Origin: Clostridiales bacterium GWF2_38_85
Lineage (GTDB): Bacteria > Bacillota > Clostridia > Oscillospirales > CAG-382
Reading direction: 5' to 3'
Assembly (NCBI GenBank): GCA_001797275.1
Contig: MGOY01000025.1
Location: forward strand, 1-64,000
Length of the DNA: 64,000 nt
In this document: positions 17,527 through 51,718 of the stretch, piece by piece
Layout of the letters: the number at the start of each line of letters is the position of its first letter
Numbering within the stretch: the stretch's first letter is position 1
Program-made: the position numbers and the translations under genes
The notes under the pieces: generated by a model
Database searches by the model: none
What the model saw: the letters and a program-made list of their open reading frames with translations, nothing else
Told to the model about the DNA's origin: nothing

Positions 17527-18021
17527 ATGGATGATAATATGAACGCACAAAATCTGGTTTATTTAACCAAAGAAGGCCTTGAAAAACTCAAAGCAGAGCT
17601 TGAACACCTTGTTACAGTTAAACGCAAAGAAGTTGGACTTGCAATATCAAAAGCACGTGCATTCGGTGATCTTTCAGAAAACAGCGAATATGATGAAGCA
17701 AAAAATGAACAGGCTGAAATCGAAATAAAAATCGCCAAACTTGAATCGACATTAAAGTATGTTGTCGTTATCGATGATTCCAATATAAAAACAGATAAAG
17801 TCAGCGTTGGCTGTAAGGTCAAGGTTTTTGATTTATCATTTGATGAAGAATGTGAATACACGATCGTCAGCGCAATTGAAGCCGAACCCATGAATTTAAA
17901 AATTTCCGATGAATCTCCACTCGGTAAAGCTCTGATTGGCAGTAAAATTGGTGAAACTGTAACTTTTGAAACACCATCAGGCGTTGACAAGATGAAGATA
18001 TTAAAAATTGCAAAGATGTAA
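17527..18021 (+). CDS. greA: Transcription elongation factor GreA
   Basis: [17 protein letters not shown]...[18 protein letters not shown]. Confidence 0.95.
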
Positions 18022-18022
18022 T

Positions 18023-18276
18023 AGCTAAAACTGAATAAAATTCAGTTTTAGCATTGGGAGTTTTTTGCTTTCACGCCAAAAGCATGGCGTGAATTTGACA
18101 GAATCAAAACGCTCAAAACTCCCCGTTATATCAATGCTTCAACTAATTTTTATTCATTTTCGTGTTTAGGACTTTATAATTTTTGCATCAAAAGCATGAT
18201 GCAAATCCGGCTTTCGCCGGAACATCATAAACTCTCCGCCCTATCCATACTCAGCTGAATGGATTCAATTTTAGCT
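18023..18276 (+). promoter_or_regulatory. Large structured intergenic region / candidate lysS leader with two tandem three-way-junction-like modules
   Basis: AGCTAAAACTGAAT (18023-18036) can pair locally with ATTCAGTTTTAG or distally with ATTCAATTTTAGCT (18263-18276); module 1 GGGAGTTTT/AAAACTCCC (18056-18123) and module 2 (about 18169-18238) each enclose two hairpins. Confidence 0.6.
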
Positions 18277-18312
18277 TTTCCAACCATGACATGAAAGGAA
18301 TCAAGTATTATA

Positions 18313-19827
18313 ATGCAAAATAATCAAAATTCAAATATACCGAAAGAGTCTGAAGAACAAATTGAGCAAAGTTTTCAGAATGAGCTTCAAATAAGGAGAA
18401 ACAAGCTGTCTGACTTGAAGGCTGAAGGTAATGATCCATTCATAATCACAAAGTTTGACCGTGATACCTATGTTAATTCAATTAAGGAAAACTTTGAACA
18501 ACTTGAAAATACAGACGTCAAAATCGCCGGACGTATTATGTCACGACGCGATATGGGTAAGGCTAACTTCATCGATATCTCTGATTTTTCGGGCAGACTT
18601 CAGGTTTATGTCCGTATTGACGATATCGGTGAAGAAACCTTCGAGGATTTCAAAAAGTGGGACATTGGCGACATTATCGGAATCGGTGGTTTTGTTTTCA
18701 GAACTCGTCGTGGAGAAATATCGGTTCATGCAAAATCGATACAACTGCTCTCAAAGTCACTGCTTCCCCTACCCGAGAAATGGCATGGATTGAAGGACAC
18801 TGAAACCCGTTACCGTAAGCGTTACCTCGACCTTATTGTTAATCCCGAAGTCAGAGATACTTTTGTCAAGAGATCAAAAATTATCTCTCAAATCCGCATC
18901 TTCCTCGATAACAGAGGATTTCTTGAGGTTGAAACACCTGTGCTTCATTCTCAGGCAGGAGGCGCTGCTGCAAAGCCATTTATTACGCATCACAACACGC
19001 TCGATATTGATATGAACCTCAGAATCGCACTCGAACTGCATCTTAAGAGGCTTATTGTCGGCGGCTTTGATAGAGTTTACGAAATCGGTCGCGTATTTCG
19101 CAACGAGGGTATGTCACCCAGACACAACCCCGAATTCACACTGCTTGAATTATATCAGGCATATACAGACTTTGAAGGTATGATGGAGCTTACCGAAAGC
19201 CTTATTAAAGACCTTGCGAAGAAGGTTGTCGGTACGGATATAGTCCCTTACGGTGAATATGAGATCGACCTTTCAAAACCTTTCACAAGACTCAAGATGA
19301 GTGATGCAGTAAAAGAATATGCAAAAGTTGATTTTAATCAGATAAAGACTCTTGATGAAGCAAGAGCTGTTGCCGACAAGCACCATATAGACTACGAAAA
19401 GAGACACGGTATCGGCGACATTCTCAACCTGTTCTTCGAGCATTATGTTGAGGACAAGCTCATACAGCCGACCTTTGTCACGCATCATCCTGTTGAAATT
19501 TCACCGCTTGCAAAGCGTTCTCCAACCGAACCAAATCTCACAGAGCGTTTCGAGCTGTTTATTCTCGGCAGAGAAACTGCAAACGCATTCTCGGAGCTTA
19601 ACGATCCTATTGATCAACGCGCAAGATTTGAAGCACAGGCGGCACTCAAGGCAAATGGCGACGAAGAAGCCTGCGATGTTGATGAGGATTTCCTGACCGC
19701 ACTCGAATATGGTATGCCACCAACAGGCGGTCTCGGAGTCGGTGTAGACCGTCTGACAATGCTACTCACTAACAGTGTTTCAATCAGAGATGTTATTTTA
19801 TTCCCGACAATGAGACCAACCGACTAA
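18313..19827 (+). CDS. lysS: Lysyl-tRNA synthetase (class II)
   Basis: [27 protein letters not shown]-like, [31 protein letters not shown]. Confidence 0.97.
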
Positions 19828-35030: not shown

Positions 35031-35060
35031 ATTTATAACCATTCCTTTCGTCATTGCGCG

Positions 35061-35171
35061 GAGTTCTGAGCTGGTTTTGCGAAGCAAAATTTACGTCATA
35101 CTGTCCACCGCATAACTTGTAATGCGGGCGTAAAAGGCACAAAACTCTTTGTCTGAAAGTTTACTTTCAAA
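35061..35171 (-). promoter_or_regulatory. Structured leader (3WJ-like module) upstream of the Gfo/Idh gene
   Basis: On minus strand: TGAAAGTaaACTTTCA hairpin, outer GAGTTTTG/CAGAACTC, hairpin TTTACG[CCGCAT..ATGCGG]CGTAAA, hairpin TTTTGCttcGCAAAA, then GAAAGGAATGGTTATAAAT-ATG. Confidence 0.55.
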
Positions 35172-35182
35172 TTTAACCTACC

Positions 35183-44091: not shown

Positions 44092-44118
44092 ATAATTTCA
44101 AAGTAAAGGAAATAAAAA

Positions 44119-44206
44119 GTTTGAAAATAAATTTTCAAACTCAGGTTTTGTGCCTTTGTGCCATATATCAAGGCACAAATTTGATTACATCAAATACGGC
44201 ACAATT
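44119..44206 (+). promoter_or_regulatory. Structured leader (3WJ-like module) upstream of the CotF-like gene
   Basis: GTTTGAAAATaaATTTTCAAAC; outer TTGTGCC/GGCACAA; hairpins TTTGTGCC..GGCACAAA and TTTGATtacATCAAA; then AAAGGAATGGTCATAATT-ATG. Confidence 0.6.
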
Positions 44207-44238
44207 CCCACACCATAAAGAAAGGAATGGTCATAATT

Positions 44239-50796: not shown

Positions 50797-51618
50797 ATGA
50801 AAAAACCGGTTGCAATACAGCTTTATTCGGTACGCGAGCAGTGCGAGAAAGATTTTCCCGGCACACTTACAGAACTGAAAAGAATGGGATATAACGGTGT
50901 TGAGTTTGCAGGCCTTTACGGCTACACCGCAAAAGAAGTCAAGGTACTGCTCAAGGATATCGGACTTACTCCCATTTCCGCACACGTTTCCTACGAGGAC
51001 ATGACAACAAAAACCGAACAGATGATATCTGACTACTCTGAAATCGGTGTAAAATACATCGGCATACCTTACCTTGTTGAAGAGCATAGACCGGGCGGTG
51101 CAAAATACGCTGAAACAATCGCAAGCATGAAGGAGTTGTCAACATTGCTTAAAGCAAAGGGTATCCAGCTTCTCTACCACAACCACGACTTCGAGTTCAC
51201 AAAAATTGATGGCAAATATATGCTTGACATACTCTACACTGACCTTTCAAAGGACGAACTTCAGACAGAGCTTGACCTCTGTTGGGTTGCTGTCGGCGGT
51301 GAGAATCCTGCAAATTATCTCAGAAAATACAGTGGTCGCGCTCCGGTTGTCCACTTCAAGGATTTTTACATAGAAGGTCAAACCGGTGCTAAGCTCTATG
51401 ATTTGATAGGCATTGACGACAATAAACCAGCTGATAAAAGCACCTTCGAATATAGACCAATCGGTACGGGACTTCAGGACATCGGCGCAATGCTGAAGGC
51501 TGTCGATGATGCTGGTTGCGAATGGATCATCATTGAACAGGATGAACCGACAGCATCAAAACCCTACTCACGTTTGGAATGTGCAGAGATAAGCATAATA
51601 AATCTGAAAAAATATTAA
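50797..51618 (+). CDS. Sugar phosphate isomerase/epimerase
   Basis: LKRMGYNGVEFAGLYG; LLYHNHDFEF; ELDLCWVAVGG; VVHFKDFY. Confidence 0.9.
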   Translation: MKKPVAIQLYSVREQCEKDFPGTLTELKRMGYNGVEFAGLYGYTAKEVKVLLKDIGLTPISAHVSYEDMTTKTEQMISDYSEIGVKYIGIPYLVEEHRPGGAKYAETIASMKELSTLLKAKGIQLLYHNHDFEFTKIDGKYMLDILYTDLSKDELQTELDLCWVAVGGENPANYLRKYSGRAPVVHFKDFYIEGQTGAKLYDLIGIDDNKPADKSTFEYRPIGTGLQDIGAMLKAVDDAGCEWIIIEQDEPTASKPYSRLECAEISIINLKKY

Positions 51619-51679
51619 TTTTTTCAGATATTCGAGTTTTATGCTTCATGGCATCCAGCATATCCATGAAGCATAAAAC
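51602..51679 (+). promoter_or_regulatory. Hairpin leader upstream of the metallophosphoesterase
   Basis: ATCTGAAAAAAT..TTTTTCAGAT then GTTTTATGCTTCATGG..CCATGAAGCATAAAAC (16-bp perfect stem). Confidence 0.6.
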
Positions 51680-51718
51680 ATCGGCATTCTGTTATTTATG
51701 AAAGGATTTATAATATAT

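Follow-up and report, generated by a model that had tools for sequence, protein, structure and literature searches.

The window analysed here, a 64,000-nt stretch of contig MGOY01000025.1 from Clostridiales bacterium GWF2_38_85, contains greA and lysS on the same strand with a structured insert between them, and the greA stop codon lies directly 5' of this insert (Table 1). Positions 18020–18245 consist of two diverged tandem copies of one structured unit with a period of 112 nt. Each unit is laid out as a hairpin A followed by a three-way "Y", in which an outer stem encloses hairpins B and C. In a self-comparison the direct repeat beginning at 18024 with period 112 scored 17 against a shuffle maximum of 15 (0/300). 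Units 1 and 2 shared four helices in a sequence-only MAFFT alignment, and eight base pairs were changed on both sides yet still paired between them. The predicted fold of the region was far more stable than dinucleotide shuffles (−90 vs −53 ± 4.8 kcal/mol; z = −7.8, 0/200). Every pairing named in the original prediction for this spacer was present where it had been placed, with the local hairpin reaching 13 bp (18024–18052), and the B hairpins of both units carried the common AAAAGCAT loop.

Table 1 Features of the greA-lysS region and other copies of the repeat in the window.
Feature	Coordinates	Strand	Basis or remark
greA, upstream gene	17527..18021	+	ORF; query for greA synteny
Tandem repeat unit 1 (hairpin A1 + Y module 1)	18020..18131	+	Period 112; CM R1/R2 match, 97.7 bits with R2
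Hairpin A1, 13 bp, loop AAA	18024..18052	+	Fold; pair probability 0.97
Y module 1	18056..18123	+	Outer stem 18056-18064/18115-18123, hairpin B1 18070-18093, hairpin C1 18094-18108
Tandem repeat unit 2	18132..18245	+	R2 match at 18137-18245, 58.5 bits
Hairpin A2, degenerate	18136..18164	+	Sequence aligns to A1; 7/13 pairs broken
Y module 2	18168..18236	+	Hairpin B2 18182-18205, hairpin C2 18206-18221
Y module 2 outer stem	18168-18176/18228-18236	+	Two mismatches; weaker than in module 1
Hairpin A3, partial third copy	18253..18276	+	Repeat at offset 223; local fold
lysS SD (AAAGGA)	18294..18299	+	Sequence; paired in single-sequence fold (predicted)
lysS, lysine--tRNA ligase	18313..19827	+	NCBIfam TIGR00499, 689 bits
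Full copy before Gfo/Idh-like ORF	35052..35175	-	Extra hairpin in loop B
Full copy before small ORF	44115..44217	+	Site empty in congener
Probable variant copy	51599..51693	+	Weak match, E 0.016 to 0.023; fold

The region had also been predicted to switch between the local hairpin and a long-range stem ending just before the lysS Shine-Dalgarno sequence (SD). The two are not balanced alternatives, since the mean pair probability was 0.97 for the local hairpin and 2e-8 for the long-range stem. The latter is apparent at lysS because hairpin A was copied, its 3' strand being the partial copy A3. A simple MITE bounded by the 14-nt inverted sequences seen at lysS was rejected, as these are copies of hairpin A. 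In the single-sequence fold the lysS SD was predicted to be masked by pairing with the degenerate A2 region, a prediction for which the lysS site offers no homologue. There was no SD 5' of hairpin A1 at lysS, no intrinsic terminator was found within the insert, and promoter-like matches at the start of lysS were at chance level. The lack of a visible T-box signature, noted in the original prediction, was borne out, as the T-box family model had no match in the window or, at permissive thresholds, in the region. Across the whole window no Rfam family scored as high as its gathering cutoff, and permissive Rfam matches in the lysS region were at chance level.

The insert was missing from the same position in most of the related genomes inspected. 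The congener G001 has a LysS with 83% identity to that of the host; its greA and lysS are ~32 nt apart, and nothing resembling the element lies in that spacer. Judged by name, the nearest LysS relatives point to class Clostridia for the host. Spacers in most other relatives inspected were <60 nt, with a minority of ~60–165 nt. None of 80 genome loci around lysS contained a copy, and a DNA search with the whole region against family genomes, phages, and plasmids returned no convincing homologue. Absence from close relatives, which had been named beforehand as evidence against a regulatory element of lysS, was thus what we found at this site. Judged by these spacers, the lysS site is an insertion. 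In loci L099 and L100 (genus g4), the greA-lysS spacers held unrelated hairpin-rich inserts of ~140 and 290 nt.

The unit proved to be a dispersed repeat, present dozens of times in gut-type Clostridia. A first covariance model built from the two lysS copies alone identified ~15 further copies in the host genome and four in the congener (E ≤ 1e-3). Refining the model (31 hits, 29 distinct rows) raised these numbers to 46 and 15 at E ≤ 1e-3, genus counts that are not independent of the model because the genus genomes fed it; counts from other genomes are independent. Copies were present in 22 further genomes of the order, spanning eight families (E ≤ 1e-3), and a class-wide draw of 391 genomes contained only one genome outside the order with copies. 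Distribution was patchy between congeners, with 11 copies in G041 vs 0 in G043 and 5 in G025 vs 0 in G008, the genomes compared being drafts of which part of each was read. G145 and G271 had 14–16 copies. The unit is ~110–130 nt long, non-coding, multi-copy, and intergenic in context, and the family was detectable only by structure-aware models. A repeat consisting of the AAAAGCAT-loop hairpin alone was rejected because the other CAAAAGCATG sites that were read had no flanking hairpin. Among the copies within the window, the variant at 51599..51693 has hairpin A and then one long hairpin replacing Y, followed by an SD and ATG. Rfam returned only tRNAs on 20 loci with other copies, and we found no published description of the repeat in the open literature searched.

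Covariation of the repeat structure was very strong. Among the refined-model copies, 31/37 pairs had double-sided changes (247 cells vs 77 expected). Among copies outside the genus, which were unused in model building, 33/34 pairs covaried (427 cells vs 122); both cell counts come from alignments fitted to the model and hence lean towards the structure. RNAalifold recovered essentially the same fold from the copies outside the genus with 31/32 pairs covarying, a prediction of its own made on the same model-fitted alignment. Few unpaired residues in the repeat were invariant. The prediction of an undescribed, tandem, structured RNA-like element therefore held, given the strong covariation and the lack of an Rfam match. 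Covariation in homologues had been expected of a lysS regulator, and it was strong, but the homologues stand at other genes and not at lysS.

Most copies sat in sense orientation directly before genes. In the two genus genomes, 54/58 copies were followed within 90 nt by a start codon on the same strand, and most of these starts lay ~20 nt or closer to the end of the model. Copies usually ended 3' in AAAGGNATGGTCATA-NNN-ATG, and the spacing between the two ATGs was exactly 12 nt in 29/36. An exact SD 6-mer occurred 5' of hairpin A in 40% of copies vs 9% in shuffles of the same stretches, and the nearest GGA/AGG core there ended mostly 3–7 nt before hairpin A. Outside the genus and on IMG/VR contigs, 36/44 copies had a nearby start and 8/44 lacked one within 100 nt. 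Family models identified the downstream genes as rpoC, pheT, ileS, tyrA, nth, dapB, lepA, fusA, cysS, and lysS, with the start codons of lepA and fusA >100 nt from the element. These genes are unrelated, and no association with one pathway of the kind expected for a riboswitch was found. Predicted SD accessibility across copies did not differ from that in shuffled controls, and SD sequestration or exposure was rejected on that ground as a family-wide function.

Several further features of these initiation regions were seen. Several of the downstream genes encode aminoacyl-tRNA synthetases or translation factors (lysS, pheT, and ileS in the host, G000, and cysS in G271). The initiation context AAAGGNATGGTYATA was common in G000 and G001, at ~40 places each, also without hairpin A, and these places could be remnants of decayed copies or reflect a usage widespread in the lineage. 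Because the SD motif is common without a detectable hairpin A, only sites with comparable flanks show with certainty that an SD came from the element. Eight loci from other families (L283, L285, L287, L303, L304, L308, L313, and L377) had an extra short hairpin between SD and ATG, CTTTCGC..GCGAAAG or GCTTGCTTCGCAAGC, as if a stem bridged the two.

Filled and empty sites at orthologous positions were found in related genomes. For host copies with a homologue in the congener sample, 15/17 comparable sites lacked the element in the congener. The rpoB-rpoC site was the clearest: in the congener TAAGGAGGCGGGCTGA is directly followed by ATG, and in the host TAAGGAGGCGAGCTGA is followed by the element, GGGAAAGGATGGACATTAAT, and ATG, such that the old SD remains to the left of the element and a new SD stands to its right. 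The two sites occupied in the congener were dapB, where hairpin A and the SD alone are present, and a gene judged by eye to be GldG-like. Congener loci L172 and L178 resemble internal deletions of the Y module, and short forms can therefore arise by loss.

Tandem forms were present elsewhere. L279 (G145) contains an array of three copies with period 113 before lepA, whose near identity suggests recent amplification, and a second three-copy array lies at G145:C48:45692-45993. Two tandem copies in L298 meet at a junction of AAAGGATGGTCATAA and GTTTGAAAG, which fits insertion of one copy beside the SD of an earlier one. Element boundaries were drawn mainly from the rpoC site and the tandem junctions. 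The resolved ends, AGTTTGAAAG... and ...GGTCATAA, do not form inverted repeats, and terminal inverted repeats were absent. The only cleanly flanked site, rpoB-rpoC, showed no target duplication; one of 1–2 nt could escape detection there. Y1 transposase (PF01797) was found in 0/2 genus genomes and in 5/14 controls, and was rejected as the mobiliser because both genus genomes lack it. This search, which covered the Y1 family, thus yielded no mobilising enzyme.

Copies also occurred on IMG/VR contigs, which were recovered with a 22-nt hairpin A pattern; BLAST against phages and plasmids and longer viral patterns yielded none. On seven of these putative viral contigs (L380, L382, L383, L384, L378, L379, and L381) the element lies just 5' of start codons. 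Two copies on L384 precede genes resembling large serine recombinases, and other IMG/VR copies precede phage-type genes, identities that were judged by eye.

We consider it probable that the family is a mobile repeat of the non-autonomous kind, one that prefers translation-initiation sites as targets and brings along a substitute SD. The element would insert in sense orientation between the original SD of a gene and its ATG and would bring a new SD in the form AAAGGNATGGTCATA-NNN-ATG. Such an insertion would be tolerated because the element replaces the SD it displaces, and later internal deletions could leave only hairpin A and the SD. The data establish the family, its fold, its position and orientation, and its presence or absence at given sites; we infer mobility as the cause of the distribution, targeting rather than survival behind the position, and any effect that copies may have on expression. 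Presence and absence could partly reflect loss in the congener, which would count against mobility. The position is the reverse of that of pneumococcal repeats: BOX, RUP, and SPRITE are enriched between convergent genes, which the authors read as parasitic repeats surviving where they are harmless (PMC3049150). Targeting or selection for function is therefore needed to account for it. A more tentative idea, which we hold to be somewhat doubtful, is that the repeat represents a new type of mobile element, one directed at the translation-initiation site itself. It would insert in the sense direction just before start codons and re-supply the SD, possibly through a mechanism that acts on mRNA or through guidance by SD complementarity, and not through a classical DNA transposase.

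The main rival to a mobile repeat is a trans-acting regulator that reads the structure. Here the copies would form a cis-regulatory RNA family in which a protein, small RNA, or RNase recognizes hairpin A or Y beside the SD and so adjusts how dozens of genes are translated or how stable their mRNAs are, with selection keeping the structure. Such a family would be in keeping with copies that run in the sense direction at a set distance from the start codon, with strong covariation across many families, and with the persistence of hairpin A and SD where Y was lost. It fits poorly with an incoherent gene set, sites not conserved between congeners, SD accessibility equal to that of controls, and the existence of copy-free congeners, and we regard it as unlikely. 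Less plausible still is an ordinary MITE or IS-derived repeat without target preference whose position before starts reflects survival only. Small size, multiple structured copies, patchiness, and occurrence on IMG/VR contigs are all typical of such a repeat, but the resolved rpoC site showed neither terminal inverted repeats nor target duplication, Y1 transposase is absent, and survival alone predicts enrichment between convergent genes (PMC3049150), the opposite of what was observed. A riboswitch or antitermination switch that is specific to lysS and works through mutually exclusive stems, as in the original prediction, is scarcely tenable: the predicted pairing of the lysS SD with the A2 region would suit it, but the insert is missing at this gene in the congener and in most relatives, the long-range stem is improbable, there is no terminator or Rfam match, and dozens of unrelated genes are preceded by the same element.

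For lysS, the best explanation of the insert is an old, tandemly duplicated copy of the dispersed ~110–130-nt repeat, and the original interpretation is partly supported. Its main effect there is probably passive, placing ~260 nt of folded RNA between greA and lysS and probably making lysS translation independent. Bacterial interspersed repeats are thought to survive where they are least harmful, whereas the mobile repeat proposed here sits where harm would be expected to be greatest, in the intervals between SD and start codon of rpoC, pheT, ileS, lysS, dapB, and others. It seems to escape that harm by carrying a replacement SD. New 5' UTRs would arise naturally from such a repeat in these Clostridia, many unexplained structured leaders there would be accounted for, and the repeat raises the question of what recognizes an SD-ATG site.

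Known systems share some of these properties. ERIC/IRU and other transcribed enterobacterial intergenic repeats are palindromic, lie inside operons, and can alter mRNA stability; they are not tied to the SD-ATG interval, and they differ from the present repeat in sequence and fold (compared here via Rfam only). REP/BIME, which Y1 transposases (RAYT) mobilise, and elements derived from IS200/IS605 are hairpin-rich and non-autonomous and have neither terminal inverted repeats nor target duplication. The repeat resembles both in its many hairpins and its lack of terminal inverted repeats, and no target duplication was seen at its resolved site; unlike them it occurs in genus genomes (2/2) without Y1 transposase. 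With riboswitch-like three-way junctions (candidates in PMC11109978) it shares the junction and strong covariation just before the SD, but not an Rfam match, a substantial set of invariant unpaired residues, a coherent gene set, or conservation at orthologous genes. The closest likeness is to BOX of S. pneumoniae, which with RUP and SPRITE comprises small, non-coding, multi-copy, highly structured interspersed repeats, and which is likewise modular, amplified in tandem, patchy between related species, and without a clear link to gene function (PMC3049150). BOX and RUP carry inverted repeats at their termini and are flanked by target duplications. The present repeat shows neither feature at its resolved site, and unlike them it is placed in the sense direction immediately 5' of start codons and brings a new SD.
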